Shown: one piece after another, positions 2,766-63,622 of the stretch
How the letters are laid out: each line of letters opens with the position of its first letter
Position numbering within the stretch: the first letter of the stretch is position 1
DNA from: a virus
Virus record (IMG/VR): IMGVR_UViG_3300044645_002754
Span: 1 to 64,000 of that record
DNA: 64,000 nt
Direction: 5' to 3' (one strand)
Translations under genes and position numbers: made by a program
Notes under the pieces: generated by a model
The model's input: the letters and a program-made list of their open reading frames with translations, nothing else
Database searches by the model: none
Told to the model about the DNA's origin: nothing

Positions 2766-4243
2766 CCGCCTCCCTCGCCCAGCTCCAACGCCGCGCCGAC
2801 AAGCTCCGGCTCGAACTGGCCAAGCGCAAAGCCCGCTCCGCCAACTTCGACCCGGGCGTGCGCGTCACCAAGCTCCCCGGCGTCGAGGACTGGCCGTCGT
2901 TCGCACGACGCACCTGGATCCGCACCGGTGGCACCGTCGCCCCCTTCGACCCCTACCCCTACCAAGTCGAGCTCGTGCGCTCAATCAACGAGCACCCGAA
3001 CACGATCATCAACAAGTCCCGCCAGATGGGCGCCTCCGAGACGGTGTGCTCCTATCTGCTCTGCCGTGCCCTCACCGAGCGCGGCTTCGCTGCCGTGGTC
3101 TTCTCCAAGACCCAGCAGGACGCCTCCGAGCTCGGCCGCCGCGTCCGCGCTATGGCCAACAGCATCGAGGGCGAATCCATCCGCTACCTGACAGACAGCA
3201 ACACCCAGATCGCCATCGAAGGCCGGGGCACCCTGTACTTCCTACCTGCTTCACCGCGCGCAGCGCGGGGGATCCCCAGCTGCTCCGTCCTGTTCATGGA
3301 CGAAGGCGCCTTCCTCGACGGTGCCGCCGAGATCTACCGGGGCGCCATGCCCACCTTGTCCATGGTGGGCGAGAACGCCAAGGTGATCGTCACCTCGACG
3401 CCCGACACCGAGCTCGACTGGTTCGGCCAGCTCTGGCACCAGGGCACGCCAGCTGACTGGTACGAGTACGTCCGGCGCCGGCGCATCGAGGAGCTCAACG
3501 CCCGCCTCGCCCAGGTCAAGGACTCCTGGAACCGCGTCGCGATCCACTACAGCCAGCATCCGCTCTACGGCCACGACCCGAACTGGGCGCGCAACACCCG
3601 CGAGTCGCGCCGGATGACCCAGGCCGCATGGGACTCCGAGTACGAGCTGGCGTTCGGCGCCACCGACACCCAGGTGTTCCCCTCGGATCTGGTGCGCCGC
3701 GCCGCCCGAGGCCACTGGCGCGAGTGTGGCTCCATCGGTCGCACCTACGTGATTGGCGTGGACCCCAACGCCGGCGGCAACGACTACTTCACAGCGGTCG
3801 TCCTGGACATCACCGAAAAGCCCTACGAGGTCGTGGGCATGTACCGCGAGAACGGTCGCAGCACCGAGTACAGCTTGAAGCACGTCAAAAGCCTCATCGA
3901 GGATTACCTTCCGGAGCGGGTAATCGTGGAGAAGCAGGCAATGGGCGCCGTAATCGCAGAGGCGCTGTCCAACATCCTGCCCAACTACGCTATCGAAACT
4001 TTTAACACCAGTCGCCCCAGCAAGATCGTGGCGACGGATCGGATCCTGTTCCTGATGGAGCACGACGAGCTGATCTTCCCCGAGGGCGTAATTAGCGACG
4101 AGCTCCGCGCCTTCCAGCAAAAGGAATCCGGCAACCGCGAAGCCGCCTCCGGCGCCCACGACGACACGGTGATGGCCCTAGCTTTCGCCTGCCACCTTAT
4201 CCCAGAGGTACCCAACACCGCCGGCTTCTTCGCACACATCTGA
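2762..4243 (+). CDS. terL: Terminase large subunit
   Basis: This is the ATPase-nuclease that pumps DNA into the prohead. The 493-residue protein shows an unusual Walker A (SRQMGASET, about residue 88), Walker B (VLFMDEGAF, about 178), coupling motif VIVTSTP (about 205), and an RNase H-like nuclease core with acidic residues in VIGVDPNAGG (about 330), an internal VEK (about 387) and HDD near the C-terminus. The start is GTG at 2762, overlapping the terS stop. A minus-strand HNH gene and a repeat tract separate it from the portal gene, an unusual interruption of the terminase-portal pair. Confidence 0.95.
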   Translation: MTASLAQLQRRADKLRLELAKRKARSANFDPGVRVTKLPGVEDWPSFARRTWIRTGGTVAPFDPYPYQVELVRSINEHPNTIINKSRQMGASETVCSYLLCRALTERGFAAVVFSKTQQDASELGRRVRAMANSIEGESIRYLTDSNTQIAIEGRGTLYFLPASPRAARGIPSCSVLFMDEGAFLDGAAEIYRGAMPTLSMVGENAKVIVTSTPDTELDWFGQLWHQGTPADWYEYVRRRRIEELNARLAQVKDSWNRVAIHYSQHPLYGHDPNWARNTRESRRMTQAAWDSEYELAFGATDTQVFPSDLVRRAARGHWRECGSIGRTYVIGVDPNAGGNDYFTAVVLDITEKPYEVVGMYRENGRSTEYSLKHVKSLIEDYLPERVIVEKQAMGAVIAEALSNILPNYAIETFNTSRPSKIVATDRILFLMEHDELIFPEGVISDELRAFQQKESGNREAASGAHDDTVMALAFACHLIPEVPNTAGFFAHI

Positions 4244-59211: not shown

Positions 59212-59214
59212 CGC

Positions 59215-59838
59215 ATGCCCGCCGAGTTCGTCCACTGCACCCCCGACGCCGAGCGCCTCATTGTCAAGATGGCCCGCGTCAGCAACCCCGACAACGCCGA
59301 CAACTGGGACACCGGACCCAAGCTGCTGCGCTACCTCATCGCGCACCGCCACTGGTCCCCCTTCGAGATGGCCTCGCTCTGCCTCCGCCTCGAAACCGAG
59401 CGCGACATCGCGGCCCAACTCCTGCGCCACCGCAGCTTCTCCTTCCAGGAGTACTCAACCCGCTACGCCCGCACCACCCTGGCCGAGTGCCCGCCCCAGC
59501 GTCTCCAAGACACCACCAACCGTCAAAACAGCCTGGACACCATCCCCTTCGCGATGAAGTCCTACTGGGACCTTCGTCTCGGCCGCGTCATCGGTGACGC
59601 CTTCCTCCTCTACGAAGACATGCTCACCGAGGGCGTCGCCAAAGAAACCGCCCGCCGCATCCTGCCGCTCTGCACCCCCACCACGCTGTACATGCACGGC
59701 ACGCTGCGCAGCTGGATCCACTACATCGACGTCCGTTGCGACCCCGGCACCCAACTCGAACACCGCGAGCTCGCCACAGAGTGCAAAGCAATTTTTACTA
59801 CCCAATTCCCCACCATCGCTGAAGCGGCTTGGCCATAG
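59215..59838 (+). CDS. thyX: Flavin-dependent thymidylate synthase
   Basis: A 207-residue enzyme converting dUMP to dTMP with FAD and methylene-tetrahydrofolate. The signature RHRxxSxxxxSxR is present as RHRSFSFQEYSTR (about residues 72-84). SPFEMASLCLRLETERDIAA and the substrate-binding C-terminus (LRSWIHYIDVRCDPGTQLEH) match the family. It is common in cyanophages. It ends the overlapping early operon; its stop is followed after 7 bp by RNA element A. Confidence 0.95.
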   Translation: MPAEFVHCTPDAERLIVKMARVSNPDNADNWDTGPKLLRYLIAHRHWSPFEMASLCLRLETERDIAAQLLRHRSFSFQEYSTRYARTTLAECPPQRLQDTTNRQNSLDTIPFAMKSYWDLRLGRVIGDAFLLYEDMLTEGVAKETARRILPLCTPTTLYMHGTLRSWIHYIDVRCDPGTQLEHRELATECKAIFTTQFPTIAEAAWP

Positions 59839-59845
59839 CACCAAG

Positions 59846-59969
59846 CTCTGGGCCTCCTTTTTAGGTGTAAGTCCCTGGTTTTGCGGCACCCTGCATCGCC
59901 TTGCAGCGCGGCGCACGGCCCCGCACAGCGGTGCGCCGCAAAGCACAGCTCCCCGCACCGAGTCGGGGA
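59846..59969 (+). ncRNA. RNA element A (5' leader of 59999 gene)
   Basis: The gap after thyX contains, in order: a weak outer stem, an inner hairpin CCT-TTTT-AGG (59856-59865), the conserved run TGTAAGTCCC (59866-59875), a GC-rich stem (9-bp GCGGCGCAC / GTGCGCCGC near 59900-59935), CCGCAAAGC, and a 6-bp hairpin TCCCCG-CACCGAGT-CGGGGA (59950-59969). It ends 29 bp before ATG 59999. Element B repeats most of these parts with different stems. Confidence 0.6.
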
Positions 59970-59998
59970 CCCCAACCCCTACGAGGAACTCACCATCA

Positions 59999-60667
59999 AT
60001 GGCTTTTCTCCGCTATTCAGTAGAGCTAACAGGCACAGCACCTTTGCTCTGCTCTAACAATTGCACAATCGATCAACTCGGCACTCCAGCTGACATCCTT
60101 GGCTGGTACCACAAGATCCCGCAGAAGAAGCGAGAGCTCCGCGTAGAGCGTTCAATGCGCAACTTTCATTGGCTTTTCAGCGGCTACTGGAAACACGAAG
60201 GTGCGGTCCAGCACCCTTCAGAGACAGATGGCTGCGATGTTTTCGAGAACTACGCTGATCCGATTCTTCCCGCTCCCAACTTGCAGCGCTGTTTGCGTGA
60301 TGCTGCAACGGCGTGGAAGCTTGGTAAAGACGTCTCACGCTCCACAATCGTGGAGAACGACTCCCCAATTACATACAACGGCCCGCGAGAAGCCCGCGCC
60401 ATGCTCAAAGATGGGCGTTTCTACAGTTGCCGCCCTAATGGCAGAGGGAACATGGCTATCCGCGTCATGTTCCCTGAATGGAGCGTCCGCTTCCGCGTGC
60501 TGATTAACGACGAAATCATGGGAGAACGGGATTTTGTCAAGATTCTTGATCGCGCAGGAGTAGCTGAAGGCTTGGGAGCCTGGCGCCCTGGCAGCCCTAA
60601 GGGCGGGCGTTTCGGCCGCTTTTCTGTTACTGATTTCACCCCGCTCTCATTTGAGGAGGCCGAGTGA
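59999..60667 (+). CDS. Conserved phage protein of unknown function (222 aa)
   Basis: A 222-residue protein, start ATG 59999 with GAGGA about 12 bp upstream; the longer open frame is non-coding. It carries the pattern ILPAPNLQRCLRDAATAWKL, VFPEWSVRFRV-like (MFPEWSVRFRVLINDE) and VAEGLGAWRPGSPKGGRFGR, which I recall from many unrelated phages as a family without a proven function, often beside recombination genes. Codon use is less GC-rich than the neighbouring early operon. It is the first gene after RNA element A. Confidence 0.75.
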   Translation: MAFLRYSVELTGTAPLLCSNNCTIDQLGTPADILGWYHKIPQKKRELRVERSMRNFHWLFSGYWKHEGAVQHPSETDGCDVFENYADPILPAPNLQRCLRDAATAWKLGKDVSRSTIVENDSPITYNGPREARAMLKDGRFYSCRPNGRGNMAIRVMFPEWSVRFRVLINDEIMGERDFVKILDRAGVAEGLGAWRPGSPKGGRFGRFSVTDFTPLSFEEAE

Positions 60668-61173
60668 TGGAAACTCATAACGCCACAATTGACTACATCA
60701 ACCTGCGCAAAGGAGACCGCATCGAGGCCGACGTCGTTTGGAACTTCTACGCTTTGCTCAAACCCGAGGTTTATCAGAACTGGATCGACGAGCACGGCAA
60801 CGAAGATCTAGCCAAAGCGGCACACATGCCCCAAACTCTCGTCCGAGTTCGCGACTGGATCGACGCACGCCGTAACGCACTGGACCTTCCCCCTCTCGTT
60901 ATCAACACTAAAAACACCGGGCTCAATGTTCTCAACGACGAAGAGGCCAGTCGTTACCTCTCCGACCGTGCTTTCGCCGGTCTGCGCCAGCACGCCAAGA
61001 ACACCGGCAGACTGATCGCAGCGGTTGACGAGACACAGCTCAGCTCTGCCGCGTTGCGTGAACACGAAAGCCGATTGCGTACACATAGCTTCGTTCTTGC
61101 TTCCACCCATGGGGCCCAGACGATGCTTCGCAAGCTGCGCCGGGAGGGCAGAGAGGCTCCCAAGCTGAAGTAA
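60667..61173 (+). CDS. Hypothetical protein of the RNA-element module (168 aa)
   Basis: A 168-residue protein starting ATG 60667 on the previous stop (TGATG). It is helical, with INLRKGDRIEADVVWNFYAL and a basic C-terminal end (TMLRKLRREGREAPKLK) that may bind nucleic acid. Base composition matches its upstream partner. Element B begins one base after its stop. Function unknown. Confidence 0.65.
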   Translation: METHNATIDYINLRKGDRIEADVVWNFYALLKPEVYQNWIDEHGNEDLAKAAHMPQTLVRVRDWIDARRNALDLPPLVINTKNTGLNVLNDEEASRYLSDRAFAGLRQHAKNTGRLIAAVDETQLSSAALREHESRLRTHSFVLASTHGAQTMLRKLRREGREAPKLK

Positions 61174-61174
61174 T

Positions 61175-61286
61175 CCCTGGGCTTCCTTCCGAGGTGTAAG
61201 TCCCAGGGCCGCCGCATTGCTCCGCGTCGCATCGCACCGCGCCACTTCGCCCCGCAAAGCCTAGGCCCCCACACCGAGTTGAGGGC
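61175..61286 (+). ncRNA. RNA element B (between 61173 and 61434 genes)
   Basis: A near-copy of element A: outer stem CCCTGGG/CCCAGGG (61175-61181 with 61202-61208, perfect), inner hairpin CCT-TCCG-AGG (61185-61194), TGTAAGTCCC (61195-61204), a GC-rich middle, CCGCAAAGC, then a hairpin GCCCCCA-CACCGAGT-TGAGGGC (61265-61286, one mismatch). The loop is identical and the stems differ, as selection on structure would produce. No gene begins right after it, unlike A and C. Confidence 0.6.
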
Positions 61287-61393
61287 ACCAACCCAACACA
61301 GAGTCCCGGCTCTCTGGTGGGTTGACCTACCACCGCCGCCGTGCATCGCATCGCTCACCTCCGCAACCCACCGCCGTGCTCCGCAGCGCAACG

Positions 61394-61415
61394 ACCTCTG
61401 CACCGAGTCAGAGGT
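61394..61415 (+). ncRNA. RNA element C: hairpin with CACCGAGT loop
   Basis: ACCTCTG-CACCGAGT-CAGAGGT, a perfect 7-bp stem with the same 8-base loop as A and B, ending 18 bp before ATG 61434. It lacks the TGTAAGTCC half but follows a GC-rich stretch (61346-61393) that echoes the middle of A and B (GCATCGC, CCGCAG). Confidence 0.6.
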
Positions 61416-61433
61416 ACTACACAAGAACAACAA

Positions 61434-61781
61434 ATGACTCAACCCTTACGCATCACAATCGAGTCAACCGCCGATGGATATCTGCGGTGGGAGATGGTTT
61501 GCGGTCCGGACGGAAAGCTCCATTTCGCAGGCACGTCGCCGCTGCTCGAAAGATGTTTTGAGGATTTGATCAGAGCCCAATGGACCCTCGCCGACCACCT
61601 CACAGCTGACCCGGACCCCGAGCCCGACTGGCTGCCTGACCCACCCGCGCACCAGACGCCCATCCCCGAGGTCCATCCGACCGCTGGCGCTGCGCTCCCC
61701 GTGCAACAGGACATCCCAGCCGGCGGCCATCTAACTAAACCTTCCGAACTTTTTTACCCTCACCCATCCAGTTCTGGTTGA
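61434..61781 (+). CDS. Hypothetical protein preceded by RNA element C (115 aa)
   Basis: A 115-residue protein from ATG 61434. The first ~55 residues look like a small beta-alpha domain (LRITIESTADGYLRWEMVCG); the rest is Pro/Asp-rich and likely disordered. It precedes the sigma factor gene by 10 bp, so both are probably on one transcript governed by element C. Function unknown. Confidence 0.6.
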   Translation: MTQPLRITIESTADGYLRWEMVCGPDGKLHFAGTSPLLERCFEDLIRAQWTLADHLTADPDPEPDWLPDPPAHQTPIPEVHPTAGAALPVQQDIPAGGHLTKPSELFYPHPSSSG

Positions 61782-61791
61782 CAATGCCCGC

Positions 61792-62667
61792 ATGTCTCAA
61801 TCAGAAGTACACAGCTATCTGACCGAGATCGGTCGCCACCCGGTCCTCTCGAAAGAGGCCCAGCTGCGGCATTGCCAGCGCATCTACGCCTGGGTCCACC
61901 ACGAGGCCGGCCGCGACGCAGCCCCCGACCGCATCCGCCGCTCCGGCTCCCGCTCCATGGAGGTGATGATCCGCACCAACCTCCGCCTGGTCGTCTCCAT
62001 CGCCAAGCGCTACCAGGGTCGGGGCCTGGACCTCGCCGACCTCATCCAAGAAGGCAACCTGGGCCTGATCCGCGGCCTCGAGCTCTACGACCCGACCCGC
62101 GGCTACGCCGTCTCCACCTACGCCTACTGGTGGATCCGCCAAGCCATCACCCGGGCCCTCCACACCCACGCCCGCTCGATCCGCCTGCCAATCAACACCC
62201 ACGAACTGCTCGCCCGCATCCAGCGCTTCACCACCGAGCACACCAGCCTCTACGGCACCGCCCCCACCGTGCTCCAAATCGCCGAATACACCGACACCAG
62301 CCCTGAGCGCATCGCCCAAGTCCTCCAAACCCACACGCTGACCGCCTGCTCCTCCCTCGACGCCATCACCACCGAGGGCGGCACCACAATCATCGACCTC
62401 ATCCCCTCCCCCACCGAATCCAACGAAAGCGAACCGGACGAAGTCCTCGCCCTCGACGCCAACAAAGAAGCCGTCCAAGCAGCCCTCGCGGCCCTGAACC
62501 CCACCGAATTCCGGATCATCCAAGCCTCCTTCTTCCAGGGCCGCACGCTCAAAGACATCGCCACCGAGTTCGGTTTCAGCCGCTGCCGCGCCGGCCAAAT
62601 CCAAAAAACCGCCATCCGCAAACTCCGCATCACCCTGTCCCTCGCTGGCCACGCCCCCACCCCATGA
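61792..62667 (+). CDS. RNA polymerase sigma factor, RpoD-like group
   Basis: A 291-residue sigma-70 family protein. Region 1.2: SYLTEIGRHPVLSKEAQLRH. Region 2: VVSIAKRYQGRGLDLADLIQ, EGNLGLIRGLELYDPTRGYA and STYAYWWIRQAITRAL, the -10 recognition and core-binding part typical of primary/group-2 cyanobacterial factors. Region 3 and region 4 (LKDIATEFGFSRCRAGQIQK) are present; region 1.1 is missing. Unlike T4 gp55 it keeps region 4, so it should bind -35 elements. A phage-carried factor of this type may switch host polymerase to phage promoters. Start ATG 61792. Confidence 0.92.
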   Translation: MSQSEVHSYLTEIGRHPVLSKEAQLRHCQRIYAWVHHEAGRDAAPDRIRRSGSRSMEVMIRTNLRLVVSIAKRYQGRGLDLADLIQEGNLGLIRGLELYDPTRGYAVSTYAYWWIRQAITRALHTHARSIRLPINTHELLARIQRFTTEHTSLYGTAPTVLQIAEYTDTSPERIAQVLQTHTLTACSSLDAITTEGGTTIIDLIPSPTESNESEPDEVLALDANKEAVQAALAALNPTEFRIIQASFFQGRTLKDIATEFGFSRCRAGQIQKTAIRKLRITLSLAGHAPTP

Positions 62668-63365: not shown

Positions 63366-63394
63366 TTGACGGGTGCGCCGAGTTGCCGTAGGAT
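63366..63394 (+). promoter_or_regulatory. Right-end promoter P1
   Basis: TTGACG, 17-bp spacer, TAGGAT: a near-consensus sigma-70 promoter preceded by a G run. No open frame follows closely, so the product, if any, is non-coding. Confidence 0.65.
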
Positions 63395-63464
63395 GCTCTC
63401 ACGCGCGCACGCGCCGCGCGTTCTATCTCTGCCCGAGCATCCCCACGGGCTCGCTCTGCAGGGG

Positions 63465-63494
63465 TTGACGGATCGCCCGATTACCCCTTACCTT
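63465..63494 (+). promoter_or_regulatory. Right-end promoter repeat P2
   Basis: GGGG then TTGACG, 18-bp spacer, TACCTT. About 29 bp are shared with P3 with a single difference, and the first half is shared with P1. The distance from P1 is 99 bp. Confidence 0.5.
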
Positions 63495-63592
63495 GGTTTC
63501 AACGGATCGAAAGCACCCGCGGCCGTCGCGCCCGGTTCTCCGCTCTCGCTCCCAGGCCACCGGCTCGCCCGGCAGCCGCCAAACCCAGGGGG

Positions 63593-63622
63593 TTGACGGA
63601 TCGCCCGATTAACCCTTACCAT
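63593..63622 (+). promoter_or_regulatory. Right-end promoter repeat P3
   Basis: GGGG then TTGACG, 18-bp spacer, TACCAT. Nearly identical to P2 and 128 bp downstream of it. An AGGAAG-like ribosome site and a two-codon frame (ATG CAC TGA at 63651) follow. Confidence 0.5.

Follow-up and report, generated by a model that had tools for sequence, protein, structure and literature searches.

RAMP proteins bound to guide RNAs with periodic unpaired bases are a familiar feature of Class 1 CRISPR-Cas systems. A further RAMP-based system, termed VIPR (Viral Interference Programmable Repeat), was described in a preprint of April 2026 and combines the RAMP protein Vipr with a vap gene and guide RNAs known as vrRNAs (PMC13142463, doi 10.64898/2026.04.26.720920). 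According to the main text of that preprint, a vrRNA consists of 9-16 pentamers, each composed of a constant scaffold triplet, worded as GGY "or a related consensus", and a two-base guide (NN), and it ends in a structured tail; the system reads double-stranded DNA, skipping one target base per unit, and represses competing phages. Class 1 CRISPR-Cas, with its Cas7 backbone on crRNA, likewise joins a RAMP protein to a guide RNA whose unpaired bases recur periodically (PMC13142463). Our main point of comparison among the described systems is the type II VIPR of Escherichia phage SUSP1 (PDB 36pp).

The locus described here occupies 59.85-61.42 kb of the window, by which we mean the whole stretch of 64,000 nucleotides analysed (positions 1 to 64,000 of the 70,802-bp viral record IMGVR_UViG_3300044645_002754). 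It is very probably a VIPR locus, made up of vipr, a second gene placed as vap is, and three vrRNAs. With SUSP1 VIPR it shares a Vipr homologue, a two-gene cassette with one vrRNA upstream (A) and the others downstream (B and C), arrays of 9-16 pentamers closed by a structured tail, and a target in a competing mobile element that is read with a 1-base skip at the wobble base. It differs from SUSP1 in having a YGC rather than a GGY scaffold, a simple hairpin with loop CACCGAGU as its tail, a 5' hairpin on vrRNAs A and B, a second gene that is not detectably homologous, and a target in a sibling phage rather than in a satellite. Unlike Class 1 CRISPR-Cas, the locus has no CRISPR repeats, spacers or other cas genes that we could see beside it, and its guide letters are spread through the repeat.

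Judged by its sequence, ORF1 (59999-60667, plus strand, 222 aa), which lies between copies A and B, is the Vipr RAMP protein, a member of the guide-RNA-binding RAMP family. It matches PHROG 4652 (phrog_4652) with an E value of 4.8e-20 and SUSP1 Vipr (PDB 36pp) with 2.3e-11 as a single sequence and 1.6e-82 with a family profile, and an HMM of other Viprs, built without the window protein, finds it at E 1.7e-24. The glycine-rich C-terminus is conserved. Identity to a felixounavirus relative is only about 30%, and the protein carries an insert of ~20 residues relative to its relatives. Structure predictions of ORF1 and ORF2 were too poor for use (pLDDT 35 and 45), so that an RRM core, G-loop and thumb could not be made out in the ORF1 model. 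Among viral contigs, close relatives of vipr and ORF2 occur in near-identical phages only, with near-identical copies of the locus in three other contigs. More distant loci with a PHROG 4652 gene, in LESphi2, a felixounavirus, Trine, LittleE and MakoManhole, have the same layout of vipr, a small second gene and intergenic arrays, these being of GGYNN type.

The second gene of the cassette, ORF2 (60667-61173, plus strand, 168 aa), begins within the vipr stop (TGATG) and is a candidate vap (VIPR accessory protein) by position and size. No phage relative of it was found, and its similarity to other vap-position proteins was not significant (hhalign E 0.061, hmmsearch E 2.1). Upstream of vrRNA A lies thyX, encoding thymidylate synthase (59215-59838, plus strand; phrog_85, E 8e-67), while vrRNA C is followed directly by ORF3 (61434-61781, plus strand) and then by a sigma factor gene (61792-62667). 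The sequence-only reading of this DNA had called the surrounding genes unrecognised; this does not hold for thyX, vipr and the sigma factor gene, and the neighbours are therefore not all unrecognised. Both vipr and ORF2 are lower in G+C and unusual in their codon use. The segment that starts where the collinear block stops, ahead of thyX, and runs into ORF3 (59212-61523) has no nucleotide match in the sibling phage discussed below, and together these features look as if the cassette had been imported. Further downstream, a long stretch without clear genes holds repeated GGGTTGACGG..-type segments (63374-63384, 63463-63493 and 63592-63622), two of which are GGGTTGACGGATCGCCCGATTA-CCCTTACC, and these look like phage promoters.

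The main feature of the locus, overlooked in the sequence-only reading, is the period-5 array located between the upstream part and the tail hairpin, which copy C has as well. The lead came from a different phage, IMGVR_UViG_3300025674_000488 (L015), in which a PHROG 4652 gene that shares its end motif with ORF1 adjoins a 5' hairpin, and GGNNN units of period 5 come after this hairpin. In the window, the stretch before each CACCGAGT hairpin has period 5 as well (NGCNN). Each of these arrays consists of 10-12 five-base units of the form YGC+NN, the counts of 12 (A, 59882-59941), 10 (B, 61208-61257) and 12 (C, 61332-61391, all on the plus strand) lying within the 9-16 tandem pentamers, each a constant triplet with variable NN, of VIPR. 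When GC at period 5 was scored over 11 units on both strands of the whole 70.8-kb phage genome, array A scored 11/11, the best of the genome, and arrays B and C tied for second with 9 of 11 units in phase, so that the three arrays hold ranks 1-3; the maximum in 100 first-order random genomes was 8, below the weakest of the three. Across the 34 units, the scaffold triplet has C or T at position 1 in 29 and G in 2, G at position 2 in 28 and C at position 3 in all 34, which corresponds to YGC and not to a strict GGY, with irregular units such as CAC, ACC and CCC among them. Guide A reads GG CC AT CT AG GG AC CC AC GG GC (11 units), guide B GC AT TC GT AT AC GC TT CC, and guide C GC CG AT AT TC TC AA AC CG TC AG (11 units, 22 letters). 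All three arrays close with the unit CGCAA before the tail, and a GGCAA unit is found near the end of the LESphi2 and L015 arrays too.

As in published vrRNAs, the arrays end in a structured 3' tail, a CACCGAGT hairpin following each of the three. The tails of A (59950-59969), B (61265-61286, with one stem mismatch) and C (61394-61415), all on the plus strand, are plain hairpins with a constant 8-base loop at 59956-59963, 61272-61279 and 61401-61408, respectively, which bears out the earlier observation of three hairpins with a common loop. The loop sequence occurs eight times in the window against 2.5 expected, and a stem of 6-7 pairs surrounds only these three copies, the others having at most 4 pairs; in the whole 70,802-bp record, no stemmed exact copy exists beyond A, B and C. 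The proposal that the stems are changed but paired, as in a repeated RNA family, was likewise upheld: five of the seven pairs are changed on both sides and 90.5% of cells pair, and such covariation was equalled by 2/500 shuffles while slid controls were all far lower, these values resting on three sequences from one genome. The tail-hairpin RNAs lie outside all Rfam classes, since neither the gathering score nor a relaxed limit of E 1 gave a match, and the idea of a riboswitch or ribozyme was dropped for want of such a match. We also considered the last stem of the Cas9 tracrRNA, which CACCGAGT presumably resembles; this candidate was abandoned, since neither Cas9 nor a CRISPR repeat was seen around it.

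Copies A and B have, in addition, a 5' hairpin before the array (59848-59877 and 61176-61207, both plus strand), and the common upstream part noticed earlier in these two copies is indeed present (CTGGGC-N-TCCT-N4-AGGTGTAAGTCCC), the full shared hairpin reading CTGGGC-N-TCCT-N4-AGG-TGTAAGT-CCC. Its pairs are invariant and it therefore shows no covariation. The motif recurs before the array of L015 (3179-3208, minus strand; GGGC-N-TCCT-N4-AGGTGTAAGTCCC); apart from this phage and its near-identical relatives, a scan of viral contigs gave no other array-linked copy. L015 is similar to the present locus in this hairpin and in its period-5 arrays beside a PHROG 4652 gene, whereas its arrays are of the GGY type and its tail is a different hairpin that lacks CACCGAGT. 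When the shared 5' part and the loop were searched for together as exact sequence, near-identical phages and one chance match alone were returned, and a search for CCGCAAAGC plus loop otherwise gave chance matches. An invariant TGTAAGT bulge is common to the vrRNAs of these two otherwise different phages, and the 5' hairpin perhaps plays a role in 5' end protection or processing.

Separate observations concern the ends and annotation of vrRNAs in other phages. In mycobacteriophage and Gordonia phage VIPR loci, a minimal-tRNA-like element follows the arrays, at ~3699-3740 and 3830-3890 in LittleE (L057), at 2985-3025 in MakoManhole (L058) and after 3186 in Trine (L056). By inspection and a single fold, it comprises an acceptor-like stem and a T-arm (GGTTCGAnTCC) and lacks both the D and the anticodon arm. 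Rfam gave no match to it, the main text of the VIPR preprint makes no mention of tRNA (PMC13142463), and the element may be a processing signal for RNase P/Z. In Trine, the annotated N-terminus of gp40 (3079-3882) translates a vrRNA array, and in LittleE the annotated gene gp35 (2057-2446) lies over two arrays; because of this overlap, both annotations are probably wrong in part.

Guides were decoded by the published rule, in which two guide letters are followed by one skipped target base (NNx patterns), and eight units of each guide were searched exactly in 2.9 million viral contigs. Matches to 16 letters of one guide were found at 46 loci, and only one of these, L061, carries full guide C: ten units match at 20/20 letters, and the irregular eleventh unit (ACCGC) brings the match to 22/22. 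L061 is also the only clearly related locus of the 46, with 25 ORFs that have homologues here, compared to none for 44 of the loci. It is collinear with the window phage, with 66-89% nucleotide identity in aligned blocks, and in its 29,460-bp contig, possibly a fragment, neither a Vipr nor a comparable array was found. The full match depends on the 1-base skip alone, as skips of 0, 2 and 3 bases gave at most 14/20 for guide C in L061, and 2000 shuffled guides reached at most 17/20. The site is located in the L061 homologue of ORF3, and all skipped bases are codon wobble positions. The main text of the preprint reports the same for natural VIPR targets (PMC13142463). Guide C accordingly has a 1-base-skip target in a competing element, as published for VIPR.

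For the remaining guides, the matches were taken as chance. Guide A had one 16-letter match among viral contigs, in an unrelated phage where the flanking units do not extend it, and none for 10 units among genome contigs; guide B had 15 viral matches, unrelated to this phage, and 16 genome matches, none of them cyanobacterial. The sigma factor is 35-38% identical to those of Synechococcus phages and gut phages and the first-listed phage match of the DNA polymerase is a Pseudanabaena phage (28.6%), which hints at a cyanobacterial host without proving it.

The phage's own ORF3 contains the site homologous to the guide C target (61545-61577, plus strand), where the peptide is LLERCFEDLIRA compared to LLERVFEDIIRA in L061. 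Only 17/22 guide letters fit this site and four units fail, two of them at arginines encoded as AGA instead of CGC, changes that leave the amino acid unaltered. Since the guides skip wobble bases, escape needs changes at first or second codon positions, and the own ORF3 uses such changes. AGA accounts for 3.1% of arginine codons in the window phage. Within ORF3, codon adaptation reaches its minimum over the ten codons that start at the target site, a value shared with the stretch one codon further on, and this places the site among the lowest 1.9% genome-wide. However, unusual codon use also marks vipr, ORF2 and the whole of ORF3, and a recoded site is for this reason suggestive only: self-targeting may be avoided via an altered, partly synonymous ORF3 allele. 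It is possible, and we propose it tentatively, that the locus represents a VIPR variant with a YGC scaffold in which self and non-self are told apart by a changed own target allele, including the two CGC to AGA changes.

By analogy with the published system, the vrRNAs would be processed and coated by Vipr subunits, with the YGC triplets acting as scaffold. The NN pairs would base-pair with double-stranded DNA and leave out one target base in every unit, and the complex, once bound, would block transcription of the competing phage's gene. It is also conceivable that the guides act on the competitor's mRNA rather than its DNA, given that guide C reads as the complement of the sibling ORF3 coding strand and hence of its mRNA as well. 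This appears unlikely, as published VIPR binds double-stranded DNA and, in the main text of the preprint, has natural targets on both strands (PMC13142463); the one target resolved here is that of guide C. A formerly active locus that has decayed and lost its function would account for the mismatch in tail B, the irregular scaffold units and the Vipr insert, yet we consider decay improbable to a similar degree, because both cassette genes have intact open reading frames, guide C fits its target at 22/22 despite the irregular units, and the locus persists nearly unchanged in the three other contigs.

The least probable alternative, and a very doubtful one, is that which had suggested itself from the hairpins: that these are cis-acting leaders, which would control how vipr and ORF3 are translated or act as binding sites for a ligand, protein or metabolite. 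Two hairpins do stop 29 and 18 bp short of a start codon and the tail stems covary; self-regulation by Vipr on its own leader is also possible as a side function. However, copy B has no gene close behind it, a pentamer array ends in each hairpin, one array encodes the gapped sibling-phage match, and no Rfam class fits. The proximity to start codons follows from the vrRNAs lying between the cassette genes, and a leader or binding role for the hairpins finds no support, as they are the ends of VIPR guide RNAs.

As parts of a VIPR locus, these hairpins and arrays provide an independent natural test of the gapped guide code, which was first reported in 2026. The phage is a distant one and its scaffold is changed, yet the full-length target that the code predicts is present in a sibling phage. 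The altered ORF3 allele suggests a way for a VIPR phage to spare itself, a matter of which the main text of the preprint makes no mention. In comparison with that main text, the YGC scaffold is set apart from GGY, although a YGC variant may already be included in the supplement. The fixed triplet can evidently go from GGY to YGC without loss of the code, a point of relevance to the way in which Vipr reads RNA.
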